Positions 7,400 through 26,112 of a stretch of 28,294 bases of DNA are shown piece by piece. The position numbers and the translations under genes were made by a program. The notes beneath the pieces are model-generated. The model saw only the letters and a program-made list of their open reading frames with translations. It was not told the origin of the DNA and ran no database searches. Source of the DNA: Clostridia bacterium (GTDB lineage Bacteria > Bacillota_A > Clostridia > Oscillospirales > CAG-272); NCBI GenBank assembly GCA_017632155.1, contig JAGBRZ010000135.1:1-28294 (forward strand). Direction: 5' to 3'. The number at the start of each line of letters is the position of its first letter. Positions within the stretch are counted from its first letter, which is position 1.

Positions 7400-7438
7400 T
7401 TCGGTGATCCTTTCAATTAAGCTTCCTATAACTATATT

Positions 7439-7467
7439 ATTATAATATAATTATAGCATTTTGACAC
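7439..7467 (-). promoter_or_regulatory. Candidate promoter of the ABC/Gld-like operon
   Basis: On the minus strand GTGTCA (7467-7462) and TATAAT (7444-7439) are separated by 17 bases, about 40 bases before the ATPase start. The region is very AT-rich, so chance -10 matches are likely, and the -35 is only a 4/6 match. Confidence 0.45.
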
Positions 7468-7560
7468 ATAGTATAGTATATCATAAATATATTACATATA
7501 TATGAACATTACACAAAATTGCGAGAAAAGCGAGTGAAATGTTGGTGATTTTTGTGTGAC

Positions 7561-7589
7561 TGGACTTTTTTTGAAAAGTGTGATATAAT
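7561..7589 (+). promoter_or_regulatory. Promoter of the long sigma factor gene
   Basis: TGGACT (7561-7566) and TATAAT (7584-7589) are separated by 17 bases. TG at 7581-7582 makes an extended -10. The predicted start of transcription near 7596 leaves a leader of about 58 bases before ATG 7654. Confidence 0.7.
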
Positions 7590-9616: not shown

Positions 9617-9771
9617 GCGTCGTCCGAGGACGGCGCGAGGTGACAGAGCGCAATACTTCCCTACATTCGGGAAGTATTGACTCTGTCCAAAATCCCGAAG
9701 CGGAGCTTCGTGGTTTTGAAGCACGGAAGCGAGAGCTAAAGCTCTCGAATTAGTTCGAGACTCCGTCTCGA
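9617..9771. repeat. Cluster of small hairpins in a gene-free stretch
   Basis: Several perfect or near-perfect palindromes follow one another. CGTCC/GGACG lies near 9621-9632. A nested palindrome spans 9642-9687: GACAGAG/CTCTGTC outside, CAATACTTCCC/GGGAAGTATTG inside, loop TACATTC. CGAAGC/GCTTCG with loop GGA is at 9696-9710. GAGAGCT/AGCTCTC is at 9731-9746. TCGAGAC/GTCTCGA with loop TCC is at 9755-9771. No T run follows them and no convincing reading frame runs through, so these look like repeat-derived structures rather than terminators. Confidence 0.7.
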
Positions 9772-9777
9772 GCTCTG

Positions 9778-9825
9778 CTAAAGAAACTTTTTGAAAAAAG
9801 TTTCTTTAGAATCTTCAAAAACTTT
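9778..9825 (+). repeat. 48-bp dispersed repeat, copy 1 (inverted partner at 12307-12354)
   Basis: These 48 bases are the exact reverse complement of 12307-12354, and identity stops sharply at both ends. The element has a perfect 15-bp hairpin, CTAAAGAAACTTTTT (9778-9792), loop GA, AAAAAGTTTCTTTAG (9795-9809). A 16-base tail, AATCTTCAAAAACTTT, follows. It lies just upstream of the promoter of the redox cassette. Confidence 0.9.
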
Positions 9826-10707: not shown

Positions 10708-12159
10708 ATGAAAATCAAAGAATGGTTCTCCTCGCATAAGCCGACCAAGCGCAGACTGATCCAGCTTTACGCCGCGCTTCTTTTCAATGCCAATCTCAAA
10801 GGATTCGGCAACGGACGCATCTATCGCGGCCCGCTCAAGGGCATCTGTGCGCCCGGAATCAACTGTTATTCCTGCCCCGCGGCATCCGCCGCTTGCCCCC
10901 TCGGCTCGCTCCAAAACGCGCTGACGGCGGCAAACAAATCCGTCCCCTATTATATGGTGGGCATCATCCTGCTCTACGCACTCCTCCTCGGACGCTGGAT
11001 CTGCGGATTCCTTTGCCCCTTTGGACTCATTCAAGACCTTCTTTATAAGATCAAGACCCCAAAGATCAAGAAAAACCGCCTGACCAAGATACTTTCGAAG
11101 CTGAAATACGTCATTCTTGCCGTTTTCGTCTTCGCACTTCCGCTCATTTACTCCTTCCGCGAATTCGTTTTGCCCGCTTTTTGCAAATACATATGCCCCG
11201 CGGGAACGCTTGAGGGCGCAGTTGGACTTCTCTCGAACCCCGAAAACGAGAATATGTTCTCGATGCTCGGCCCGCTTTTCACCTGGAAATTCTTCCTTCT
11301 CGTCATCTTTATCCTCGGCGCGGTGTTCATTTACCGCTTCTTCTGCCGCTTCTTCTGTCCGCTCGGACTGATCTACGGTCTTTTCAACAAGATCTCCTTC
11401 ATCGGCGTTTCGGTTGAAAACAGCAAATGCACCGAGTGCGGACACTGTCTTTCGGTCTGCAAGATGGACATTTCGAAGGTTGGCGACACCGAATGTATTC
11501 AGTGCGGCGACTGTATTTCCGAATGCCCGACAAACGCGATCTATCGCCGAGGCCCGCGTTTTCTGATCGATCCCGGCACTCCGGGCGGCAAAATTGACGA
11601 AAAAACCGCCAAAAAGAACCGCCTCGGTCAGCGCATCGTTGCCGCGCTTCTCGCAGTTATCCTTTGCGGCGCGCTTGTTTACTATAACTTCATCGATAAA
11701 GTCCCCGAAGCCGTGACCGGTGCCGAGGTCGGACAGATGTGCCCCGACGATGAGATTCCGCTTTACAACTCCGACCAAACCTTCGGCTTCAGCGTGACCA
11801 CAACGAACAGCAAGGTTCGCGTTATTAACTTCTGGGGCACTTGGTGCGGTCCTTGCGTTGCCGAGCTCCCCCACTTTGACGAGCTTGCAAGCGAATTTGA
11901 CGGCGAAGCGGTGTTTATCGCGATCCATTCAAGCTACGCCGCAGATACCGCGCTTGATTTTGTCCTTGCAAATTACCCCGAATCGAAGATGCTCTTCGGT
12001 CAGGGCGACGACGTTGACTCCTACTTCTACGCCCTCGGCGGCGGCGACACATGGCCGATGACGGTCGTGCTCGACTCCGAAGGTATCGTGACAGCGAGAT
12101 TTGACGGCTCTGTCGATTACGAAACGCTGAAGGCGGCGATTGAAGACGCACTTGATTAA
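10708..12159 (+). CDS. NapH-like membrane ferredoxin fused to a TlpA/thioredoxin domain
   Basis: A protein of 483 residues predicted to move electrons across the membrane to an extracytoplasmic thioredoxin. Residues 1-230 hold about four helices and the CX3CP motifs typical of NapH/NosR-type proteins: C99-GFL-C103-P, C159-KYI-C163-P and C213-RFF-C217-P. There is also a Cys-rich segment at 48-63. Residues 241-273 are two classical 4Fe-4S clusters: C241, C244, C247, C251 and C263, C266, C269, C273. A helix near 308-327 leads to a TlpA-like thioredoxin domain with active site WCGPC at 379-383 and the cis-Pro region TWPMTVV. AAGGAGG precedes the ATG. Likely role: supply of reducing power to extracytoplasmic disulfides or oxidised proteins (inference). 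The complete motif set makes the family call firm. Confidence 0.92.
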   Translation: MKIKEWFSSHKPTKRRLIQLYAALLFNANLKGFGNGRIYRGPLKGICAPGINCYSCPAASAACPLGSLQNALTAANKSVPYYMVGIILLYALLLGRWICGFLCPFGLIQDLLYKIKTPKIKKNRLTKILSKLKYVILAVFVFALPLIYSFREFVLPAFCKYICPAGTLEGAVGLLSNPENENMFSMLGPLFTWKFFLLVIFILGAVFIYRFFCRFFCPLGLIYGLFNKISFIGVSVENSKCTECGHCLSVCKMDISKVGDTECIQCGDCISECPTNAIYRRGPRFLIDPGTPGGKIDEKTAKKNRLGQRIVAALLAVILCGALVYYNFIDKVPEAVTGAEVGQMCPDDEIPLYNSDQTFGFSVTTTNSKVRVINFWGTWCGPCVAELPHFDELASEFDGEAVFIAIHSSYAADTALDFVLANYPESKMLFGQGDDVDSYFYALGGGDTWPMTVVLDSEGIVTARFDGSVDYETLKAAIEDALD

Positions 12160-12162
12160 TTA

Positions 12163-12275
12163 TCGCGGCGTTGCCGCGAATGATAATCTGCTTCGCAGAA
12201 TGATGATCGGCTGCGCCGAATGATGATTTGCCTGCGGCAAAATGAAGGTGAATTTCCTCGCTGCGCTCGGAAATT
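12163..12275. repeat. Array of small hairpins with constant 7-nt spacers
   Basis: Four perfect hairpins come in a row: TCGCGGC-GTT-GCCGCGA (12163-12179), TCTGC-TTC-GCAGA (12187-12199), TCGGC-TGC-GCCGA (12207-12219) and TTTGCC-TGC-GGCAAA (12227-12241). The spacers are ATGATAA, ATGATGA and ATGATGA; the last two steps have an exact 20-base period. After a fourth, variant spacer a fifth, imperfect hairpin has outer arms AATTTCC (12251-12257) and GGAAATT (12269-12275), with a GC-TGC-GC tip. Stem sequences differ between units but stay complementary. It begins 3 bases after the stop of the ferredoxin-thioredoxin gene. No U tract marks it as a terminator. Confidence 0.85.
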
Positions 12276-12306
12276 TTCAATCAAAATAAAAATCAACAGC
12301 AGCGGT

Positions 12307-12354
12307 AAAGTTTTTGAAGATTCTAAAGAAACTTTTTTCAAAAAGTTTCTTTAG
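12307..12354 (-). repeat. 48-bp dispersed repeat, copy 2 (inverted partner of 9778-9825)
   Basis: The exact reverse complement of 9778-9825. In plus orientation the tail AAAGTTTTTGAAGATT comes first. The 15-bp hairpin follows: 12323-12337 with 12340-12354, loop TC. With copy 1 it encloses a 2577-bp segment holding the two redox genes. Confidence 0.9.
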
Positions 12355-12420
12355 TCGCCCTCCGCAGAGGGCGAAATATCCCCTGCGCTTCAAGCGGGCG
12401 GCGCCCCCGCCGAACGCTTG
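12355..12420. repeat. Further GC-rich hairpins beside the 48-bp repeat
   Basis: TCGCCCTC (12355-12362) pairs with GAGGGCGA (12367-12374) around a CGCA loop. CAAGCG (12391-12396) pairs with CGCTTG (12415-12420) around an inner GGCGG/CCGCC stem (12397-12401 with 12407-12411). These start directly at the end of the 48-bp repeat. No gene is supported in 12160-12461. Confidence 0.65.
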
Positions 12421-12421
12421 G

Positions 12422-12459
12422 AATAACAGAAGCCTCCCTCGCGGGAGGCTTCTGTTATT
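12422..12459 (-). terminator. Strong hairpin after the sigma/anti-sigma operon
   Basis: A perfect 17-bp stem (12422-12438 with 12443-12459) has a 4-base loop and lies 2 bases past the TAG stop of the anti-sigma-like gene. The U tract on the minus strand is short (TTATT, formed by the stem itself), so termination efficiency is uncertain. Confidence 0.7.
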
Positions 12460-12461
12460 CA

Positions 12462-13508
12462 CTAATTCACAGGATACTCGACAAGTCCTTTATTATTCGG
12501 ACCCATCTTAACAATGGAAACAAGCTCGGAGTTTTCATAAAACAACTTAAGGATCGCATCGGTTGCCTCTTTTCCCACATTGAAGAAAACGGTAGGCTGA
12601 CGGAATCCCGAATACGCTATATAACCGTTTTCGTGAACCCATATATTGCAATACATATCACCAACGGAAGCAATATTAACTATCAGATTGAGCGTCGGCT
12701 TATTTTTAACATCTGCTATCCTTTCGTCGCCCGTGCTGTAACCTCCCGTGATCTCCGCGGGAGCATCAAGCGTAAGCAGAATTTTTATGATATCACCATC
12801 CGCACCATTTTTGAGGCTGTATTTTTTATATTCAATTCCGCGGAGCTCTACGGTATCGTCTTCCAAGCGAACTTCTGTCATACTCATAAATGCAGGAGCA
12901 TTATAATCCGAAATCAGATCCGCTAATGAGGTGAACTCATAATCGGTATTCACCGCAGCAAAGTAGTGCTCAAGCGAGTTAAATGGACCCTCTTCAATAA
13001 ACTTGATCGCAACTCCCGCATCGGGAGCAACGCCATTTACAGCATAGACCTCTGCCTTGACTACCTTTAAGTCGTGTTCTACCGCGGGCCGCTCACTAAA
13101 ATATCCCCAGCCATTCAAAACATTGATATCGTCAAGCTTTTCGCCGATGATCTCGCCGTACATTTCCACAGGATATGCATTTCTGATAAGGTATTCGGAG
13201 TATTTATAGCCCACGATCCTGAAAATCGGGTATTTTGCGTTCGTTCCCACGCCCGTTTCAGCCGTTTCAACCGAGCCGTAAAACGGATCAAACAGGTATA
13301 GTGTTTCTTCACCAACGATAGTTTCCTCGGGCTCAATATCAAGGAGCATCGGCAGTACCGCCAGCATACTTGCCGCAAGAAGCGCGATTGCCGCAGCTAT
13401 CGCAATCAGTTTCGGGAAGGAGCTTTTCTTTACGACTTTTCTCTCCGCGCGCTCGACAAGTGCGGGATCGATCTTTCCCATTGCATCAAAAAATTCATTC
13501 GTCTTCAT
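12462..13508 (-). CDS. Membrane anti-sigma-like protein paired with the ECF sigma factor
   Basis: A protein of 348 residues. Residues 1-30 (MKTNEFFDAMGKIDPALVER then AERKVVKKSS) form a short cytoplasmic segment typical of Firmicutes anti-sigma-like proteins, beginning with the I/M-x-x-IDP-L-E-A pattern. One transmembrane helix follows (about 32-56, rich in Ala, Ile and Leu). About 290 extracytoplasmic residues follow that I cannot assign to a family. The start is ATG 13508, where ATGA overlaps the sigma stop and GGAGG lies upstream; a longer frame to 13658 lies inside the sigma gene and is not used. The layout predicts that the protein holds the sigma factor at the membrane until a signal reaches the outer domain. 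That role is inferred from position and topology. Confidence 0.75.
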   Translation of the reverse strand: MKTNEFFDAMGKIDPALVERAERKVVKKSSFPKLIAIAAAIALLAASMLAVLPMLLDIEPEETIVGEETLYLFDPFYGSVETAETGVGTNAKYPIFRIVGYKYSEYLIRNAYPVEMYGEIIGEKLDDINVLNGWGYFSERPAVEHDLKVVKAEVYAVNGVAPDAGVAIKFIEEGPFNSLEHYFAAVNTDYEFTSLADLISDYNAPAFMSMTEVRLEDDTVELRGIEYKKYSLKNGADGDIIKILLTLDAPAEITGGYSTGDERIADVKNKPTLNLIVNIASVGDMYCNIWVHENGYIAYSGFRQPTVFFNVGKEATDAILKLFYENSELVSIVKMGPNNKGLVEYPVN

Positions 13509-14853: not shown

Positions 14854-14882
14854 TTGATATTTTGATGCCGTTGTGGTATAAT
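14854..14882 (+). promoter_or_regulatory. Promoter of the protease/peptide-transport operon
   Basis: TTGATA (14854-14859) and TATAAT (14877-14882) are separated by exactly 17 bases. TGG directly before the -10 makes it extended. The predicted leader to ATG 14990 is about 100 bases and very AT-rich. The apparent upstream coding frame from 14882 overlaps the -10 and is not used. Confidence 0.8.
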
Positions 14883-14989
14883 TGTTCAGTCACGCTAAAT
14901 TTATATTATATATCTTTTTAATAAAAAACATTATATATTATTATATTATATATTTATCGTTACGTAATTACGCGAAAGGCGAAGGAAAA

Positions 14990-17900
14990 ATGAAGAAACA
15001 AACCAAAACAAGAATCCTGTCAGCGGTGCTTTCCGTGCTCTTGCTGACAACGATGATCGTCGGAGTTTGCGTCGAAGCTGCGGGAGATGTTGCCGCAGAA
15101 GCCTACATCGGGCTCTTTGACGGCAAGCTGAATCACGATATCTCGAAGTATTTTTCGAATGCTATCGTGGCTCTTCCGAGCACGGTCAAGGATGACCAGA
15201 TCATCTCGCTCATCATCGAGGTCGATGCGGAAAGTCTGCTTGACGCATACGAAGCCTCCGATAAGACGATGAGCATATCCGAATTTGCAAAGAGTGACGA
15301 GGCTGCCGCTCTGCGCGAGAATATCGCAAAGGAGAACGCAGAGCTCATCGAAAAGCTCGATAAGGCGGGATACTCCTATGAGCTCGGACTTGATTACGAT
15401 ACCGTTTTGGCGGGCTTTGAGCTCCTCATCACCGCCCGCGATTTCGAGGGCGTTTGCAAAACTCTCGGCAACAAGACAAACGTTATCGTCGGCGACGTTT
15501 ACAAGTCGATGGAGAACAAGCTTGTTGAAAACACCGTCAACGTTCAGGATACGGGTATTTTCAACAGCGTCGGCTGTGGATATGACGGTTCGGGAACTGT
15601 TGTCGCGGTTCTTGACACGGGTCTTGACTACTACCACACCGCGTTTTCTACCGAGAATTTCACGTCTGACACACTCGGCATGACATTCGCCGATGTTGAA
15701 GGCTTTATTGGTGACACCGTCGCTTCGGACAAGCAGGCGGGACTGACTGCCTCCGACGTTTACGTCAGCACGAAGGTCCCCTACGGATTTGACTACGCTG
15801 ACGGCGACGCTGACGTTTTCCCCATCCACTCGGACCACGGCACGCACGTTGCGGGCGTTATTGCGGGTAAGGATGACGTTATCACCGGCGTTGCTCCCAA
15901 CGCACAGCTCGCCATTATGAAGATCTTCTCGGATATCGAGGATACCGCAAGAACCTCCTGGATCCTCGGTGCACTTGAGGACTGTGTTGCTCTTGAGGTT
16001 GACGTTATCAATATGTCGATCGGTACCTCCGCGGGCTTCTCACGCGAGGGCGATAAGGAAAAGGTCACGGGAGTTTACGACCGCATCCGCGAGCTCGGAA
16101 TCAGCATGGTTGTTGCGGCTTCCAACAGCTTCACCTCCACCTATGGCTCCGAGAAAAACGGTAACCTCGGTCTTACCTCCAACCCCGACAACGGCACCGT
16201 CGGCTCTCCCTCGACCTACAAGGGTGCGCTCTCCGTTGCATCGGTCAACGGTGCAAAGACCCCCTATATGCTTTACGGCGAGAGCATCATCTATTACATA
16301 GAAGCAACCGACCGCGTTTCCGAGGAAAAGGAATTCGTTGCCGACCTCCTCGGTGAAGGAGTCAATGAGGCTGAATACGAATTTGTAACCATTCCCGGCG
16401 CGGGACGATCTGCCGACTACACGGGAATTGAGGTTTCGGGCAAGATCGTTCTTGTAAGCCGTGGCTCGACCACCTTTGAGGAAAAGGTTCAGGTTGCGGG
16501 ATCTAAGGGCGCCGCCGGCATCATCATCTACAACAACGTTGCGGGTGACATCAAGATGACCGTTGGTGATGCAAAGCTCGCAGTCTGCTCGATCAGCCAG
16601 GACGAGGGCGAAATGCTCGCGGCTGTCGGCACGGGCAAGCTCAAGATCTCCCGCGGACAGACCTCCGGTCCCTTCATGTCCGACTTCTCCTCTTGGGGTC
16701 CCTCCCCCGACCTTGAGATCAAGCCCGAGATCACCGCACACGGCGGAATGATCCTCTCCTCCGTACCCGGTCAGGCTTACGACAGAATTTCGGGTACTTC
16801 GATGGCGTGCCCCAACGTTTCGGGTCTTGTTGCCATCCTTCGTCAGTACGTTCGTGAGAACTTCCCCGCTATCGCAGACAATAACGTTGAGATCGCGGCT
16901 GTCGTCAACCGACTTCTCATGTCCACCGCTGACATAGTTATCAACAAAAACGGTCTGCCCTACGCCGTAAGAAAGCAGGGCGCGGGTCTTGCAAATCTGA
17001 CAAGCGCGATCGCAACCGATGCTTACATCCTCACAAAGAGCCGTAAGGACGGAAGCATTCTGGATAAATCCAAGATCGAGCTTGGCGATGACCCCGCAAA
17101 GACAGGCGTTTACACCCTGAATTTCTCAGTATATAACTTTGGTTCTTCTTCACTTTCCTATGATATATCAGCATACGTTATGACCGAGGGTATCAGCGAT
17201 ACCAAGACAAATGACGGTAAGTACACCGTTGACGAGCAGGGCTACCTCCTCGAAAATGGCACCACCGTCGAGATCACCAATGTTTCCGGCGGAACTCTCA
17301 GCGGAAAGAACCTCACCGTTGCCGCAGGCGCTACCGCTGACGTGACAATCACCGTCACCGTTTCTGATGCGGACAAGGAATATCTTAGCCGCTTTGAAAA
17401 CGGTATGTATATCGAGGGTCACGTAACTCTCACCGCAACCGCAGGCACAGAGATCGACCTCTCCGTCCCCTACCTCGCTTTCTACGGCGACTGGACGAAG
17501 GCTCCCCTCTTTGACATCGACTATTTCGAGACCAACGCCGACGAGCTCGACAAATCGATCGACCTTGCCGACAAGACTCTGCCCGATGCTTATGCAACAC
17601 GCCCCGTCGGATCGCTTTACGACGATTACGTTTCCTTCCTCGGCGGCTACTACTTCGAGCAGAATCCCGCATCCAAGCTCATCGCGGCTGACCGCAAATA
17701 TATATCCATCTCGAACGTTGAGGGCACGGTCCACGCGCTCCAATACGTTTGGGCAGGTATGCTCAGAAGTGCCGCACGCGTTGAGATCACCATCACAAAC
17801 GATGCAACAGGCGAGGTCGTATTCGAGAAGACAGAGAATGACATCCGCAAGTCCTACGGCGACGGCGGCTCGATCTATCCCTCAAATATCGAAATCGGCT

Positions 17901-20900
17901 TTGACGCTTACGAGCAGGAGCTTGAAAACAACACCCGCTACACCGTCACGCTCAAGGGCTTCCTTGATTACGGCGACGGCGGCGAGGCAAACAACCTTTC
18001 AAACACCTTCACCTTCCCCCTCTACGTCGACTTTTCCGCTCCCGCGGTAACCGACGTTGAGTACTACACCGAATATGACCGTTCTGCGGAAAAGACCCGT
18101 CTTTTTGCAAAGGTTGCCGTTTACGATAACCACTATTCGATGGGCGCACAGTTCGGTTACGTTGCAAATGACGGAAACGGTGAATTCGTCTTCAAGGCGT
18201 TTGACAGATACATCACTTCGATCTACTCGGATTTCAATTCAACCTCATACGTTGTTTACGAGTTGACCGATTACGTATCACAGATCAAGCAGGATGCGGC
18301 AAATGCAAACACCTTCACCGTGGTCACATACGACTATGCGCTCAACACCGCAACCTACGAGATCTCGCTTCCCGACGAGTACGTTGATATGTACTTCGAG
18401 GAAGGAAGCATCAGCCTTTCCCCCAACCAGACATATGATCTTCGTCCCATCCTCTACCCCGGCAGTGAATGGAGCGAGCTTCTTGAATACTACTCCACCA
18501 ATATGAACGTTGCGGACATCGTCGGCAACAAGGTAATTGCACTCAAGCCCGGCGTAACGAGAATCGTTGCGCGCGATCCCGTGACAAAGAAGACCGCGCA
18601 CCTTGCACTCACCGTTCTCGGCGAGGGTGACGAGGGCTTCCAGAAATTCGACAAGCCCGTCACAGACAACTTCGTCCTGACCGGCTACTACACCAAAAAA
18701 GCATACTATCAGCTTGATTCCACCGAAAGAGATATCGGCGCTGACGGTGACGAGCGCAAGTTCGTCGGAGAGAACTACTCCCTCTCAATGTTCCCCTCCG
18801 AGTCCGTCATCCTCCGCTATCAGCTTGAAGCCTTCTTCCCGAAGGACACAAAGGTAGTATTTGAATCGAGCAACGAAAACATCGTCAAGGTTGACGAAAA
18901 CGGAACCATTACTGCAATGGCAGAGGGCTTTGCAAGCATTTCGGTCAACGTCGAAATGGATGGCAAGGCAACCTATTACTCAAAGTCGATCTCCGTTGAG
19001 GTCAAGGAGCCCTGGATCACATCGGGTCCATCGCTCTCACACTACTTCGGACTCGGCGGAACAGTAACCTTCCCCGAAACTCTTGCGATCACGGAGATCG
19101 GTCAGTATGCATTTGCAAACTTCGACTACGTTCCCAAGACCGAGGAGGACGAGATCTCCGAGGAAGTTCCCGAAACAACCAAGATGTGGTATCTCGGTGA
19201 CAACACCATTGAGGAGGTCATCATTCCCGAGGGCGTTGAAAAGATTGGACGCTTCGCGTTCGCTAACCTCACCGCTCTTCGTCGCGTTGTTCTTCCCTCC
19301 ACCCTCACCACCATTGACTACGGCGCGTTTGCGGGTTGTATCTCGCTCGTTTCGGTCGAAGGTATCGGCAATGTCAAATTCATCAACGAAAAGGCGTTTA
19401 TGGACTGTAACATTTCGGGCGCCATCACCCTTACAGAGGGCGTTGCGCTCGGTGAATATGCCTTTGCAAATAACAAGAATCTTCAGAAGCTTACACTCAC
19501 CGAAAAGACAAAGTCTGTCGCTTCATACGCTTTCTCGGGCTGTACCAAGCTCAAGACCGTAACCATCCAGGCTGAAAAGATCAAGCTCGGTCAGTACGTA
19601 TTTGCAAAATGCGAAGCGCTCAAGGAGATTTCCGTCAATGCATCGGTCATCCCCGCGGGCAGCTTCGACGGATGTAAGAACCTTGAAAAAGTGACCATCG
19701 GACGTGACGTTGCCGTTATCGGAGAATACGCGTTCCGCGGCACAAAGGTTGCATCCTTCACGGTTGCCGAGGGCAACACCACCTTCAAATCGCAGGGCGG
19801 CGGAGCATATCTCCTTTCCGCAGACGGCAAGACCCTTCTTCTCTGCGCTCCCATAGCAGAAGATATCGAACTTAACGCATCAGTCACCACAGTTGCAGAC
19901 GGCGCGTTCTCCGGTAACAACCACATTACTTCCGTCAAGCTTCCCGGTGTCACCAAGCTTGGCAACTACGCATTCGCAAACTGCGAAGAGCTTGTAAACG
20001 TTGAATTCAGCAAGCTTACTCACATTGGCGACTACGCATTTATAAACACTGCCATCAAAGCAACTCCCGATCTTTCGGCTGTCAAGTACATTGGTGCCGG
20101 CGCGTTCAGAAGCACCGAGATCCCGTCCGTCAAGATTGCGGACAACACCGAGGTTGGCAGAGATGCCTTCCGCGATTGCGAAAAGCTTGAGAGTGTCACA
20201 ATCGGCAACTCTGCCGTTATCGGTCATAATGCCTTCCGCATCTCAAACAAGGACAACTGGACATACGAATATTACAGACTTGCAGATAACTCGCGTATCT
20301 ACTACTACGTATTCACCTCCCCACTCCACTCGCTGACGATCGGCGATAATGTCACTCTCGGCAACTCCGCATTCTACGGTGCGGCTGAACTGACCGAAGT
20401 TAAGCTCGGAAAGAACGCAGAGATTGGCGACTACGCATTCTACAACGCATCGAAGCTCGAAAAGATCGACCTTTCAAAGGTCAAGTCGATTGGTGCTTAC
20501 GCTTTCTCGGGCGATGCCACCTATGAATATCTCGACCAGAGCTTTTCTGCTATCGCAACCGACGAGGATAACAGCTATCTCTATCATTACCACGCTCCCA
20601 TTATGACCTCGATCGAGCTCTCCTCCGCAGAGAAGATCGGCGAGGGTGCATTCTCCTATATGAGAAGCCTCAAGACGGTAAAATCGGGTGCAAAGCTGAC
20701 CGAGATTGCGGACAGCGCGTTCTATTACTGCTCCGCCCTTGAAAGCGTAACCTTCGCAAGCATCGAAAAGATCGGCAAGAACTCATTTGCTTACACCGCG
20801 CTCAAGTCTGCGGACCTCGCAAAGGCAACCGAGATCGGCGATTATGCCTTCACGGGCACAGAAACTCTCGCATCCGTCAAGTTTGCGGACGGTGCAAAGG

Positions 20901-22165
20901 TTGGCGAGGGCGCATTCGGATACTGCATCGTGCTCACAACGCTCACGGGCGCTGATAAGATCGCATCCGTTGGCAACTACGGCTTTGCTTATACCGCGCT
21001 GACCGAGATTGATCTTTCGTCCGCCGAATTCATCGGAAAGTATGCCTTCATCAAGGAAGAAAAAGCTCCCTTCAAGGTAACTCTCGGTGAAAAGCTCTCG
21101 AACATCGGCGACAATCCCTTCGCAATGTGCATTCTTGAGCCCTTTGCAAAGGTCAACAAGATCGACTTTAACGGCAAGGTTTATGACGAGATAAGCCTTG
21201 ACTACGATCTTTCCGAAAACGTAAAGGTCATTGGCGGCTCGCTCTACCGCGTGATCCCGAACGGCCTTGAGCTCATCACCTATGCGGGTGAGGGCAAGAA
21301 CGCAACCGTTGCAGACGGCACATCAAGAATTTCCGCATGGGCATTTGCGGGAAGCGACGTCAAGAGCGTCGAACTTCCCAAGGAAGTTGCCTCTATCGGC
21401 CACAAGGCGTTCTTCGCCTGCGAAAACCTCTCGCTTGTGACCTTCCAGAGCTACAACGCCCCGATTCTTGAGGAAGAATTCGATTACAACTACTTCGCAT
21501 CCTACGAAAATCTCCCCGCAACGGGTGATTACGACTTTGTCGATCAGAACGGCAAGGAGCTCATCTTCAAGGGTCTTGGCATCGTTGACTACTTTATGTG
21601 GAACGCTACCGACGCACCCTACGTTATTTACTACGGCGCAAACTTCATCGACTACATCGGTCACATTGAAAGCCCGATCACCATGGTTTGCCCCGCAAAC
21701 GGTAAAAACTACGATTCCTTCATTCTTTCGAACTATTTCGATAACGTCCTCCTCGGCGCGGCGGCTGCCGATGATGCCACTCTTGCCGCCATCAACCTTA
21801 TCGAAAAGCTTCCCGAAACGGTATCTCTTGACGACCGCGCGGCAGTTGAAGCCGCTCGCGCCGCATATGACGCGATCTCGACACTCGAACAGCGTGCACT
21901 CGTCACCAATTACCAGAAGCTGACTGAAGCAGAGGCGAGAATCGAAAAGCTTCTCACCCTTGAAAACGGTGAAACTACCGAGCCTCCCGCAGTTGAAGAA
22001 CCGACCGAGGAGATCGGTACTCCCACAGTAATCATTATCACTCTCACCGCGATTCTTGTGATCGCAGTGGTCGCAATTATCATCTGCGACAGCGTAATTA
22101 TCAAAAAGAACAAAAAGGCAGAGGAAGGAGAAAAGAAAGACGAAAATGAAAATGACAAAAATTAA
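14990..22165 (+). CDS. Giant membrane-anchored subtilisin-like (S8) protease with BspA-type leucine-rich repeats
   Basis: A surface protease of 2391 residues. The signal peptide covers residues 1-31 and a propeptide-like region about 32-195. The S8 catalytic domain holds D209 (VAVLDTGLDYYHTA), H283 (SDHGTHVAGVIAG), oxyanion N379 (VVAASNS) and S604 (SGTSMACPNVSGL), so it should be active. A PA domain is inserted at about 436-524, as in lactocepin/C5a peptidase-like enzymes. Fn3/DUF1034-like beta domains follow, then two BIG2-like domains (about 1134-1214 and 1285-1345). About 27 BspA/LRR_5 repeats span 1364-2155. A helical FIVAR-like segment (about 2261-2324) precedes a C-terminal transmembrane helix (about 2347-2369) and a Lys/Glu-rich tail; there is no LPXTG. 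AAAGG and AAGGA sites precede ATG 14990. It overlaps the next gene by 20 bases and heads a peptide-uptake operon. Confidence 0.93.
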   Translation: MKKQTKTRILSAVLSVLLLTTMIVGVCVEAAGDVAAEAYIGLFDGKLNHDISKYFSNAIVALPSTVKDDQIISLIIEVDAESLLDAYEASDKTMSISEFAKSDEAAALRENIAKENAELIEKLDKAGYSYELGLDYDTVLAGFELLITARDFEGVCKTLGNKTNVIVGDVYKSMENKLVENTVNVQDTGIFNSVGCGYDGSGTVVAVLDTGLDYYHTAFSTENFTSDTLGMTFADVEGFIGDTVASDKQAGLTASDVYVSTKVPYGFDYADGDADVFPIHSDHGTHVAGVIAGKDDVITGVAPNAQLAIMKIFSDIEDTARTSWILGALEDCVALEVDVINMSIGTSAGFSREGDKEKVTGVYDRIRELGISMVVAASNSFTSTYGSEKNGNLGLTSNPDNGTVGSPSTYKGALSVASVNGAKTPYMLYGESIIYYIEATDRVSEEKEFVADLLGEGVNEAEYEFVTIPGAGRSADYTGIEVSGKIVLVSRGSTTFEEKVQVAGSKGAAGIIIYNNVAGDIKMTVGDAKLAVCSISQDEGEMLAAVGTGKLKISRGQTSGPFMSDFSSWGPSPDLEIKPEITAHGGMILSSVPGQAYDRISGTSMACPNVSGLVAILRQYVRENFPAIADNNVEIAAVVNRLLMSTADIVINKNGLPYAVRKQGAGLANLTSAIATDAYILTKSRKDGSILDKSKIELGDDPAKTGVYTLNFSVYNFGSSSLSYDISAYVMTEGISDTKTNDGKYTVDEQGYLLENGTTVEITNVSGGTLSGKNLTVAAGATADVTITVTVSDADKEYLSRFENGMYIEGHVTLTATAGTEIDLSVPYLAFYGDWTKAPLFDIDYFETNADELDKSIDLADKTLPDAYATRPVGSLYDDYVSFLGGYYFEQNPASKLIAADRKYISISNVEGTVHALQYVWAGMLRSAARVEITITNDATGEVVFEKTENDIRKSYGDGGSIYPSNIEIGFDAYEQELENNTRYTVTLKGFLDYGDGGEANNLSNTFTFPLYVDFSAPAVTDVEYYTEYDRSAEKTRLFAKVAVYDNHYSMGAQFGYVANDGNGEFVFKAFDRYITSIYSDFNSTSYVVYELTDYVSQIKQDAANANTFTVVTYDYALNTATYEISLPDEYVDMYFEEGSISLSPNQTYDLRPILYPGSEWSELLEYYSTNMNVADIVGNKVIALKPGVTRIVARDPVTKKTAHLALTVLGEGDEGFQKFDKPVTDNFVLTGYYTKKAYYQLDSTERDIGADGDERKFVGENYSLSMFPSESVILRYQLEAFFPKDTKVVFESSNENIVKVDENGTITAMAEGFASISVNVEMDGKATYYSKSISVEVKEPWITSGPSLSHYFGLGGTVTFPETLAITEIGQYAFANFDYVPKTEEDEISEEVPETTKMWYLGDNTIEEVIIPEGVEKIGRFAFANLTALRRVVLPSTLTTIDYGAFAGCISLVSVEGIGNVKFINEKAFMDCNISGAITLTEGVALGEYAFANNKNLQKLTLTEKTKSVASYAFSGCTKLKTVTIQAEKIKLGQYVFAKCEALKEISVNASVIPAGSFDGCKNLEKVTIGRDVAVIGEYAFRGTKVASFTVAEGNTTFKSQGGGAYLLSADGKTLLLCAPIAEDIELNASVTTVADGAFSGNNHITSVKLPGVTKLGNYAFANCEELVNVEFSKLTHIGDYAFINTAIKATPDLSAVKYIGAGAFRSTEIPSVKIADNTEVGRDAFRDCEKLESVTIGNSAVIGHNAFRISNKDNWTYEYYRLADNSRIYYYVFTSPLHSLTIGDNVTLGNSAFYGAAELTEVKLGKNAEIGDYAFYNASKLEKIDLSKVKSIGAYAFSGDATYEYLDQSFSAIATDEDNSYLYHYHAPIMTSIELSSAEKIGEGAFSYMRSLKTVKSGAKLTEIADSAFYYCSALESVTFASIEKIGKNSFAYTALKSADLAKATEIGDYAFTGTETLASVKFADGAKVGEGAFGYCIVLTTLTGADKIASVGNYGFAYTALTEIDLSSAEFIGKYAFIKEEKAPFKVTLGEKLSNIGDNPFAMCILEPFAKVNKIDFNGKVYDEISLDYDLSENVKVIGGSLYRVIPNGLELITYAGEGKNATVADGTSRISAWAFAGSDVKSVELPKEVASIGHKAFFACENLSLVTFQSYNAPILEEEFDYNYFASYENLPATGDYDFVDQNGKELIFKGLGIVDYFMWNATDAPYVIYYGANFIDYIGHIESPITMVCPANGKNYDSFILSNYFDNVLLGAAAADDATLAAINLIEKLPETVSLDDRAAVEAARAAYDAISTLEQRALVTNYQKLTEAEARIEKLLTLENGETTEPPAVEEPTEEIGTPTVIIITLTAILVIAVVAIIICDSVIIKKNKKAEEGEKKDENENDKN
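19081..21450 (+). repeat. Coding array of BspA-type leucine-rich repeats
   Basis: About 27 units of roughly 20-30 residues follow the pattern IGxYAFANCxxLxxVxLxx. The units diverge at DNA level but share short identical blocks, for example ATTGGCGACTACGCATT at 20024-20040 and again at 20423-20439. One unit near 20245-20340 and one near 20515-20620 carry Tyr-rich inserts. BspA repeats are known for binding to host or bacterial surfaces and matrix proteins in other species. Confidence 0.85.
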
Positions 22166-23541: not shown

Positions 23542-26112
23542 ATGTCAAAGAGAATTCTCTCATTGATGCTTGCCGCCGTTATGCTCTTCGGCGTTCTGGC
23601 ATCGACCACCGCGTGCGGCGGCACAACTTCCGCGCCCGACGCTCTCGTTATCATGACCGAAGAACTCGACGGTCTTTTCAACCCCTTCTTCTCAACCACC
23701 GGTGCAGACGCAACCATCGTTTCGATGACACAGATCGGTATGCTCGGCTCCGACTACGTAAACGGTGACGTTGCCGTTGCCTACGGTAAGGATCATTCGG
23801 TTGCTGTCCTTGACTACGCAATCAACTATGATTCCGCCGCAGACAAGACCACCTACACCTTCGTTCTCAAGAACGACATCGTATACTCCGACGGTCATCC
23901 CATGACCATGGAGGACGTCCTTTTCAACCTCTACGTTTACCTCGATCCCGTATATACCGGTTCTTCCACCATGTACTCGACCGATATCGTCGGTCTTCAG
24001 GACTACCGCACACAGACCATCGGCTCGGGTTCGAACAACGTTGACGACACCATCACCTCTGCCGCAAACGACCGCGCGCAGAACCGCATCAATGAGCTCA
24101 TCAACCTCTTCCGCTCCGTCGGCAAGACCCAGACTGCAGGCTCTTACAGCGCAGACTACGCAAAGATGGTAGATGCGATAGGCAAGCACTCCCTCTCCTC
24201 GGGTTACGTCAATGCTATCTCCAATAACGCCGCAGACGTAACAAATGCAACTCTTCTTGCAGACTACGAGGAAGCTCTCCGCCTCTTCAAGGAAGAACTC
24301 GGCACCGACTATATCTCCGCAAAGGAAGCATACCTTGAGGAGCCCTACAAGTCCACGGGCGAATTCGACGAAGTCACCTCCTTTATGTACGCAGAGGGCT
24401 ACGTTACCGTTGAGTACGCAAAGGATCCCGAGACCAACAAGGACATCAAGTCCAAGATCGAAAAGGTCACCCGCCTTTACAACGCAGACGTTGTTAAGGA
24501 TATGAACTCCGCGATCGACTACGTTTACAACTCCAAGATCGAGCAGGAGCTCGACATCATCCTTTCCTACTGGGCAACCGCAAACAAGCTTCGCACCACC
24601 TATGCCGCAAAGGCAAAGGAAGTCATCCTTCGCGCTAATATGAAGGACGGCGAGCTCACCGTTCCCAACATTTCGGGTATCGTTTCCCTCGGCCACACCA
24701 CAGACGTTGCTACCGTTACCGCTTCGAATGGCACCTACACCGTTGCTCACGAGCACGACGCTGACGGCAAGCCCGTAAACGCTGAGGAATACGACGTTCT
24801 CGAGATCACCATCAACGGCACCGACCCCAAGGCTATCTGGAACTTCTCCTTCTCTGTTGCTCCCCAGCACTACTATGCAGAGGGTTACACAGTTGATATC
24901 GCAAACAACAAGTTCGGCGTTGACTATGCATCCTTCAACTATATGAAGGAAGTAATTCAGTCCTCCAGAAACGTTAAGCTCCCCATGGGTGCAGGCGCAT
25001 ACAAGGCTACCGACTCCCAGAACAGCGACACCCCCGCAGAAGGCGACTTCTTCAAGGACAACGTTGTTTACTTCAAGTCCAACAACAACTTTATGATGGG
25101 TCAGCCCAAGATTGAAAAGGTTCGTTATCAGGTTGTTTCCGCATCGAACGCCATCTCTGCTCTCGAGTCCGGCTCGGTTCACTTCGTAACTCCTCAGTTC
25201 ACTCAGGCTAACATCGACCTCATCAACGGCCTTGCTTCCAAGGGCATCGAGAAGACCTACACCGATCAGCTCGGTTACGGTTACATCGGCGTCAACGCAG
25301 GTAAGGTTCCCAACATCTACGTTCGTAAGGCAATTATGTCCGCTATGAACACCTCTCTTGCACTTTCCTACTACTCCACCGGTATGGCAGAGACCATCTA
25401 CTGGCCTATGTCCACCGTTTCGTGGGCTTACCCCAAGGATGCGAGCGGCAACAACAGCCGTGACAACCTCCACGACTACCCCGCTATCCTCTTTGACCGC
25501 GAGGAAGCAAAGAAGACTATTCTTGAATATATGCAGCTTGCAGGCGTTTCCGCGGGCGACTCCGCACTCTCCATCAAGTTCACCATCGCAGGCTCTAACC
25601 TCACAGATCACCCCACCTACCAGACCTTCCAGTCCGCCGCTGACCTTCTCAACGAGTGCGGATGGAACATTGAGGTAGTTCCGGATACTCAGGCACTCAC
25701 CAAGCTTTCGACCGGTTCGCTCGCAGTTTGGGCAGCAGCTTGGGGAACCACCGTTGACCCCGATATGTATCAGGTCTACCACAAGAACTCGACAGCAACA
25801 AGCACCCTTGCTTGGGGCTACCGCGAGATCCTTGCTTCTCCCGCATCTTATCCCGAGGAGACTCAGATCCTCAACAAGCTCAGCGACGTCATCGACGATG
25901 CACGTGAGATCAACGATCAGGCAGAGCGTTCCGCACTTTACCGCGAGGCTATGGGCTACGTTCTCGACCTTGCAGTTGAGCTCCCCGTATATCAGCGTAA
26001 GGTTCTTTACGCTTACAACGCAAAGGTGATCAATTCCGATTCTCTCCCCGCAGAGATCAACCCCTACACCTCTCCCCTTGATAAGATCTGGGAGATCGAA
26101 TTTGCTAACTGA
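23542..26112 (+). CDS. Peptide ABC transporter substrate-binding lipoprotein (SBP_bac_5 / OppA-DppA-like)
   Basis: A lipoprotein of 856 residues, with a signal peptide ending at Cys25 (ASTTAC). Family-5 features include LNPFF-like FNPFFSTTGADATIVSMTQI, VYSDGHPMTMEDVLFNLYVY (about 114-133), ALESGSVHFVTPQFTQANID, VRKAIMSAMNTSLAL and, near the C-terminus, WAAAWGTTVDPDMYQVYH and ELPVYQRKVLYAYNAKV. Normal family members have about 500-600 residues. The excess is mostly a helix-rich insertion at about residues 150-410. The protein captures peptides outside the membrane and delivers them to the permeases encoded next. The codon bias (AAG, CTC, ATC, GTT) is as strong as in rplA, which suggests high expression. 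Identity of the ligand cannot be read from sequence. Confidence 0.92.
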   Translation: MSKRILSLMLAAVMLFGVLASTTACGGTTSAPDALVIMTEELDGLFNPFFSTTGADATIVSMTQIGMLGSDYVNGDVAVAYGKDHSVAVLDYAINYDSAADKTTYTFVLKNDIVYSDGHPMTMEDVLFNLYVYLDPVYTGSSTMYSTDIVGLQDYRTQTIGSGSNNVDDTITSAANDRAQNRINELINLFRSVGKTQTAGSYSADYAKMVDAIGKHSLSSGYVNAISNNAADVTNATLLADYEEALRLFKEELGTDYISAKEAYLEEPYKSTGEFDEVTSFMYAEGYVTVEYAKDPETNKDIKSKIEKVTRLYNADVVKDMNSAIDYVYNSKIEQELDIILSYWATANKLRTTYAAKAKEVILRANMKDGELTVPNISGIVSLGHTTDVATVTASNGTYTVAHEHDADGKPVNAEEYDVLEITINGTDPKAIWNFSFSVAPQHYYAEGYTVDIANNKFGVDYASFNYMKEVIQSSRNVKLPMGAGAYKATDSQNSDTPAEGDFFKDNVVYFKSNNNFMMGQPKIEKVRYQVVSASNAISALESGSVHFVTPQFTQANIDLINGLASKGIEKTYTDQLGYGYIGVNAGKVPNIYVRKAIMSAMNTSLALSYYSTGMAETIYWPMSTVSWAYPKDASGNNSRDNLHDYPAILFDREEAKKTILEYMQLAGVSAGDSALSIKFTIAGSNLTDHPTYQTFQSAADLLNECGWNIEVVPDTQALTKLSTGSLAVWAAAWGTTVDPDMYQVYHKNSTATSTLAWGYREILASPASYPEETQILNKLSDVIDDAREINDQAERSALYREAMGYVLDLAVELPVYQRKVLYAYNAKVINSDSLPAEINPYTSPLDKIWEIEFAN

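Follow-up and report, generated by a model that had tools for sequence, protein, structure and literature searches.

A gene-edge array of short covarying hairpins in Clostridia and its dispersed relatives of the Gut-1 kind

A 28,294-nt stretch of DNA from a Clostridia bacterium (the window, that is, the whole stretch that was analysed) carries a string of short perfect hairpins behind a gene, joined by a nearly constant linker. The stems differ from hairpin to hairpin. What kind of element is this, and what keeps the two arms of each stem matched? A preliminary description proposed structural selection or a copying process that rewrites both arms, and these proved to be the right pair of alternatives.

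The array in the window

The array and its surroundings comprise the following features (window positions).

10708–12159, + strand: upstream gene, 483 aa, 4Fe-4S/thioredoxin-like protein (Pfam Fer4_5, Thioredoxin, Redoxin)
12163–12179, + strand: hairpin 1, TCGCGGC-gtt-GCCGCGA, 7-bp stem, loop GTT
12180–12186, + strand: linker ATGATAA, joining hairpins 1 and 2
12187–12199, + strand: hairpin 2, TCTGC-ttc-GCAGA, 5-bp stem, loop TTC
12200–12206, + strand: linker ATGATGA, joining hairpins 2 and 3
12207–12219, + strand: hairpin 3, TCGGC-tgc-GCCGA, 5-bp stem, loop TGC
12220–12226, + strand: linker ATGATGA, joining hairpins 3 and 4
12227–12241, + strand: hairpin 4, last unit, TTTGCC type, TTTGCC-tgc-GGCAAA, 6-bp stem, loop TGC
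12242–12275, + strand: end module, ATGAAGGTG, then stem AATTTCC/GGAAATT (12251–12257 with 12269–12275)
12304–12420, no strand assigned: second structured element, AAAGTTTT type, ends set by eye
12421–12460, no strand assigned: 18-bp inverted repeat between convergent genes, possible bidirectional terminator

The four perfect hairpins, their loops and their linkers were confirmed as first described. The array starts 3 nt past the TAA stop (ending at 12159) of the ferredoxin/thioredoxin-like gene. Hairpin starts lie 24, 20 and 20 nt apart, not at the uniform 20-base period reported before. The sequence at 12251–12275, previously taken for an imperfect fifth unit, belongs to a separate recurrent end module and is neither an array unit nor a decayed one. 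In the window this module reads AAGGTGAATTTCC...GGAAATT, with a 7-bp stem and an 11-nt loop. The last stem, TTTGCC, is the commonest last stem of ATGAT arrays (8/20). Simulation of 200 first-order Markov windows gave one array of at least three hairpins and none of four or more, by which chance is excluded as the origin of the window array.

Fold z-scores were −3.4 and −3.7 for the two DNA strands of 12160–12280, −2.4 for sense RNA (12155–12290) and −2.2 for antisense RNA. The predicted DNA fold of either strand contained the four hairpins and the end-module stem, and so did that of the antisense RNA. In the predicted sense RNA, units 1 and 3 paired and the four hairpins were not formed. Between 11900 and 12700, no intrinsic terminator (GC stem followed by a T-run) was found on the + strand; one site on the − strand lay within the array (12199–12187), one found against 1.2 expected. 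Two sigma-70-like sites were located in the same interval, both on the − strand, one of them inside the array (12186–12159). The same terminator scan did not flag the inverted repeat at 12421–12460, so its terminator role is put forward only as possible.

A CRISPR was rejected, because the constant part is the 7-nt linker and the hairpins recur between arrays; no Cas domains were found among the 17 window proteins scanned. Elsewhere in the window, positions 14882–22165 encode a predicted 2427-aa subtilase with PA, Fn3-like, Ig-like and BspA-type leucine-rich repeat domains.

Relatives of the array

A protein search with the window gene returned 31 loci, of which four were close (91–94% identity; L001–L004). 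They belong to Clostridia MAGs from cattle colon, goat cecum, yak colon and goat colon (genomes G001–G004). After the stop codon of this gene, L001 and L002 had no array and instead a AAAGTTTT-type structured element at the same site. L003 had an end module preceded by heptad repeats, without hairpins, and L004 had four hairpins with the linker GTTAATR and a like end module. At the 3' site of ptsI, a GTTAA array was present in G004 and G002 and a GTGATAA array in G001, with no array in G003 or the more distant G116. The gyrA site held an ATGAT array in G002, a AAAGTTTT element in G001 and the end module alone in G004; no hairpin array was found there in G003, which had short GTGGACA-type repeats, and no array in G125 or G116. 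The slot is therefore re-used, and hairpins and linker turn over within one genus.

The AAAGTTTT-type element has several hairpins and shares intergenic slots with the arrays, at 12304–12420 in the window and after the same gene in L001, L002 and L004. Its stems vary from copy to copy, pairing seemingly being kept (by eye). Window positions 9639–9778 are an inverted match of L004 11768–11629, also of this type. Heptad-like short repeats (AGTGCAA/AGTTCAA, CTAGCAA, GTGGACA) occurred where other species have hairpins, at L003 2705–2740 and 5360–5380, where they precede the end module, and at the G003 gyrA site (L175).

The search of relatives that the preliminary description had set as its test turned up dozens of like arrays. 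Adjacent GTTAANR linker pairs numbered 85 in G004, 69 in G002, 3 in G003 and 0 in G001. GTGATRA pairs were found 62 times in G001 and not in G002, G003 or G004, and ATGATRR pairs 31 times in G002, 8 in G003 and 7 each in G001 and G004, a few of these not being hairpins. The reversed-pattern control gave 0–1 pairs per strand in G001–G004. The linkers are lineage-specific, with GTGATRA in G001, GTTAANR mainly in G002 and G004, and ATGATRR mainly in G002 and the window. Most other genomes of the genus had none of the three above background. Across 295 genomes of the order, GTTAANR matched in 44, not exceeding the reversed control, and none was hairpin-like by eye. Outside the genus, ATGATRR was matched in 44 of 118 family genomes; by eye, hairpins accompanied few of these matches, most of which are due to chance.

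When 702 kb of G002 and G004 were scanned without regard to spacer, further linker kinds appeared among the 70 arrays listed of 123, and pieces of other genomes showed yet more. Tandem hairpin arrays with the linkers TATGGAAT/ATTCCATA, TATATCAT, CGATAT, GCTAAAT and ATGATG were seen at G004_C9 24926–25665, G004_C31 17754–17877, G002_C18 7410–7568 and 30777–30941, L201, L215 and L216. Among stem words seen at least three times, 26 of 31 were common to two or more linker families; this shared vocabulary may reflect constraint as much as copying.

Pairs of arrays facing each other on opposite strands were frequent (G002_C53, G002_C18, L035, L187 and several Gut-1 matches, e.g. G017:C12, G040:C1, G011:C59). 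In some of the Gut-1 matches the two lie only about 20 nt apart, so that certain copies look like a single large inverted-repeat element. In L187, positions 205–297 form a long inverted repeat of ATTCATT-like units, with sub-cut-off matches to plant microRNA models that probably arise from palindromy. The draft contigs G002:C6, C53 and C126 begin inside or beside an array; arrays may therefore break assemblies and be under-counted. No arrays were found in phages and plasmids by blastn. A pattern scan of IMG/VR returned at least 120 stretches, and among the 80 listed one of 86 matches had a hairpin, judged to be chance. Array strand compared with contig GC skew, tallied by eye, gave no clear replication-strand bias.

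The 3' close of the arrays recurs. A last unit was recognised in 89 arrays; AAGG[TA] followed 61 of them, and a stem of at least 7 bp lay within 60 nt after 53, against 97 of 1780 random 60-mers. Some end modules read GGTAG. At the array 5' end nothing was conserved beyond a purine, and no target duplications were evident by eye.

Nothing in the window reached the gathering threshold of any Rfam model. In a permissive search, the Gut-1 model (RF01706) aligned over its full length, positions 1–77, to 12157–12228, with 24.9 bits (E 0.004 for 161 bases) against a gathering score of 50. Taken alone, this match is weak; at E 0.01, sub-threshold matches also appeared in two of 14 control genomes (E. 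coli, Bacteroides ihuae). At the same E value Gut-1 matched 4 of 19 array-bearing or related loci, GTTAA and most other variants having no match. Only one of the four, the GTGAAAT array of L215, was over the cut-off (63.9 bits). Copies over the cut-off were present in at least 8 of 13 genomes of the genus, including G001, G002 and G004, and, under stricter filters, in 44 of 78 family genomes and none of the 14 controls.

Both Gut-1 and the window array are tandem runs of perfect, small-looped hairpins with covarying stems and a constant 7-nt linker, and the Gut-1-type GTGAAAT arrays of G116 also have a like end module. The Gut-1 linker is GUGAAAU and its model has three hairpins, whereas the window array has ATGATRR linkers and four hairpins plus the end module. 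The available text of Weinberg et al. 2010 (PMC2864571) files Gut-1 as a likely noncoding RNA found in human gut sequence only; the arrays described here are a gene-edge repeat of cattle, goat and yak MAGs. The window array fails the Gut-1 model and linker, so it is a variant and not a member: it is a linker variant of the known Gut-1 kind. Shared architecture, end module and genomes tie the linker kinds together. A search of the openly accessible literature found no description of these linker variants.

BOX elements of Streptococcus, as given in the available text of PMC3049150, resemble the arrays in being modular, with a variable number of inner modules, intergenic, species-restricted and thought parasitic. 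They have boxA and boxC ends and a recurring boxB, whereas in these arrays the inner stems differ and constancy is largely confined to the linkers and the 3' end. Of BOX-style fixed ends, a candidate 3' module was seen and, beyond a purine, no 5' one.

Pairing, loops and unit order

Parsing gave 104 distinct arrays with three or more units each (31 from G001, 42 from G002, 6 from G003, 24 from G004 and the one in the window), taken from fetched stretches that cover part of each genome. Full Watson-Crick pairing was found in 380 of 400 units. First and last units were admitted only when paired, so the inner-unit figure (222/242) is less biased. In an initial collection of 71 arrays, pairing was seen in 1535 of 1553 arm cells (268 of 273 units, those of 13–17 nt); dealing the arms anew 1000 times gave 1038 on average and 1089 at most. 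The inner and last units included 65 distinct 15-mers; of their 390 cells, 96.2% paired against 69.0% after shuffling, and pairing was 14–47% when the partner was slid by 1–3 columns. In these 15-mers, 110 pair cells had changed on both sides and 2 on one side (a G-U step), while 15 were unpaired. The earlier observation that stem changes are matched on the other arm thus extends to the relatives. Array-by-array alignment for single-step stem changes was uninformative among the 25 listed of 833 alignments, because whole units differ.

Selection on RNA should tolerate G-U pairs and purge C-A. Across the 1383 cells of 242 inner units, whose own pairing was not demanded, we counted 3 G-T, 5 C-A and 22 other mismatches; in these small numbers there is no sign that G-U is tolerated above C-A. 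In 21 GTGAAAT arrays of G116, 82 of 84 units paired fully, and none of 537 cells was G-T. The near absence of G-T pairs therefore tilts the evidence towards a process at the DNA level.

On the sense strand, triloops had the form TNC in 254 of 328 cases and tetraloops the form TNNC in 39 of 49, hence GNA and GNNA on the other strand. The loop-closing pair was C-G in 373 of 380 units. Loop inversion was nearly absent (TTC 181 against GAA 3). The DNA mini-hairpin GCGAAGC, known for its stability, has C(GAA)G as its core, and a general GNA rule applies to such stable DNA loops. According to the available text of PMC8794818, intrastrand template switching may be promoted by loops that are stable as DNA, and template-switch events can create perfect stems at once; its authors term the evidence on the upkeep of short stems circumstantial.

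Stems were not repeated freely within arrays of G002 and G004. In 66 arrays of these genomes there were no identical neighbouring stems against 11.4 expected (position kept), and 2 identical pairs at any distance against 15.0. The 31 G001 arrays showed no avoidance (neighbours 3 against 5.1 expected, any distance 11 against 12.8), and those of G003 were too few to judge. Unit order itself was conserved, by eye, in the GTGAAAT arrays of G116, so non-repetition there may simply be order.

Folding was compared for arrays with all units perfect (55 of the 66 from G002 and G004, 25 of the 31 from G001). For the + strand of G002 and G004 DNA, canonical pairing was 0.941, against 0.839 with units dealt anew and 0.908 when extra identical stems were forbidden; none of 30 deals reached the observed value in either case. 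The corresponding RNA values were 0.721 against 0.687 for the + strand (3 of 30 deals reached it) and 0.746 against 0.707 for the − strand (1 of 30). G001 arrays fold no better than identity-controlled deals, of which 24–27 of 30 were equal or better in three of four tests and 15 of 30 in the fourth.

Gene edges and the explanations weighed

To count positions, we called genes with our own hexamer script on the contigs fetched from G002 and G004, which carry 54 arrays. A gene 3' end lay on the array 5' side in 35, a gene 5' end in 17, and no called gene in 2. Two other gene sets gave 37 gene 3' ends with 16 5' ends, and 39 with 16; a different placing of first units accounts for the gap between the first of these and 35 and 17. 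Of the 35 arrays after gene 3' ends, 32 began no more than 60 nt past the stop, 18 of them no more than 10 nt past it, and 10 of the 17 by gene 5' ends were within 60 nt. The array 5' side was the one closer to a called gene in 44 of 50 arrays with both flanks (binomial p 3e-8), and in 40 of 50 with a 100-nt margin (p 2e-5). In G116 this polarity was 12/15, dropping to 6/15 with the margin.

On balance, we think it somewhat probable that the arrays are a dispersed gene-edge repeat, BOX/REP-like and of the Gut-1 kind, non-autonomous and largely selfish, whose hairpins are kept as DNA. Dispersal, covariation, the recurring end module, the polar placement at gene edges and the lineage-specific linkers are observed; mobility, like transcription and function of the arrays, we infer. 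The repeat mostly consists of 3–5 short hairpins with a lineage-specific 7-nt linker, usually closed at the 3' side by a TTYGCC-like last hairpin and a AAGGTRAATTTCC...GGAAATT-like end module, and would be copied between sites. Template switching at replication, favoured by bottom-strand C(GNA)G mini-hairpins, may act on it. Fold-back copying, together with loss of arrays that fold badly as single strands, could keep the arms matched while stems drift, and copying between arrays could give each genome its uniform linkers. Any influence on mRNA ends would be secondary. The suggestion of a self-propagating repeat in the preliminary description fits as far as dispersal goes; no mobilising enzyme was identified. 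Several observations count against the gene-edge DNA repeat. Loops are almost never inverted, which speaks against pure inter-strand template switching, as that allows inversion. Stem avoidance and better-than-dealt folding occur in G002 and G004 but not in G001, the polarity in G116 is weaker once the 100-nt margin is set, and more arrays follow gene 3' than 5' ends, as an RNA role also predicts.

A more far-reaching version of the DNA reading is tentative: the arrays could be natural recorders of template-switch mutation, their arms rewritten together by fold-back synthesis and new perfect stems arising in single events. Most hairpins would carry, on the bottom strand, a C(GNA)G or C(GNNA)G loop of extra stability at their tip, and the Gut-1 'RNA', instead of being a structured RNA, would represent one of the linker types in a superfamily of DNA repeats.

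Rather unlikely, in our estimate, is an RNA-level element: an array transcribed together with the upstream gene, whose hairpins shield the end of the mRNA or mark it. The 3' transcript stabiliser first suggested is of this type; the array itself has a precedent in Gut-1, which has the same architecture. The stems covary, 35 of 52 arrays follow a gene 3' end (37/53 and 39/55 in the other gene sets), often close to the stop, and the window antisense RNA is predicted as four hairpins. However, 17 of 52 arrays have a gene 5' end on their 5' side, and about five of the 35 seemed by eye to lie beyond a terminator-like hairpin (the script flagged one). The window sense RNA is not predicted as four hairpins, G-U pairs are nearly absent, and the sense loops are mostly TNC triloops, not UNCG or GNRA tetraloops. 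The stabiliser was thus not well supported.

Improbable, too, is an array of sites for a linker-binding protein, with the hairpins holding the sites open or spaced. Within one genome the first five linker bases are near-invariant while stems vary, and hairpin plus linker mostly measures 20–22 nt, about two helical turns. Unit length is variable, however, and sister species differ in linker at the same gene, so protein and sites would have to change together.

REP/BIME and GTAG/CGTC palindromes are likewise short and present in many copies, and complementary stem changes are reported for REPs (available text of PMC3733652 and PMC8266576). We regard movement of the arrays by a RAYT (TnpA-REP) transposase as quite improbable. 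They are many short intergenic palindromes able to fold as single-stranded DNA, some end modules read GGTAG, and a Y1 domain was found in 3 of 13 draft genomes of the genus (G002, G003, G122). Unlike REPs, the arrays have head-to-tail units and a fixed linker; no GTAG or CGTC tag stands beside the units, where the linkers ATGATRR, GTTAANR and GTGATRA adjoin. No Y1 domain was found in the array-rich drafts of G001 and G004. In these drafts the domain does not track the arrays, and RAYT was set aside as their driver.

There is little to recommend a free-standing small noncoding RNA, as which Gut-1 was filed (Rfam type 'Gene; sRNA'). The sub-threshold full-length match in the window speaks for it; dozens of copies per genome at varied gene edges speak against it, as does the placing of both sigma-70-like sites found in 11900–12700 on the − strand. 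Ordinary tandem duplication or chance is hardly credible: the period is roughly regular and G001 arrays hold three identical neighbours and 11 identical pairs, as expected without avoidance, but the lack of identical neighbours in the 66 arrays of G002 and G004 is the opposite of fresh duplication, and the simulated windows exclude chance for the window array.

Functional RNAs are usually recognised by covariation. In these arrays, 110 covarying cells with only two G-U steps, G-T mismatches about as few as C-A ones, copies by the dozen at gene edges and linker differences between sister species are signs of a DNA repeat. If this is true, the Rfam family Gut-1 needs re-reading, and dozens of hairpin arrays per genome would provide a test system for one-step compensatory change by replication. 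Whether replication itself makes compensatory changes in one step is a question raised in the available text of PMC8794818.
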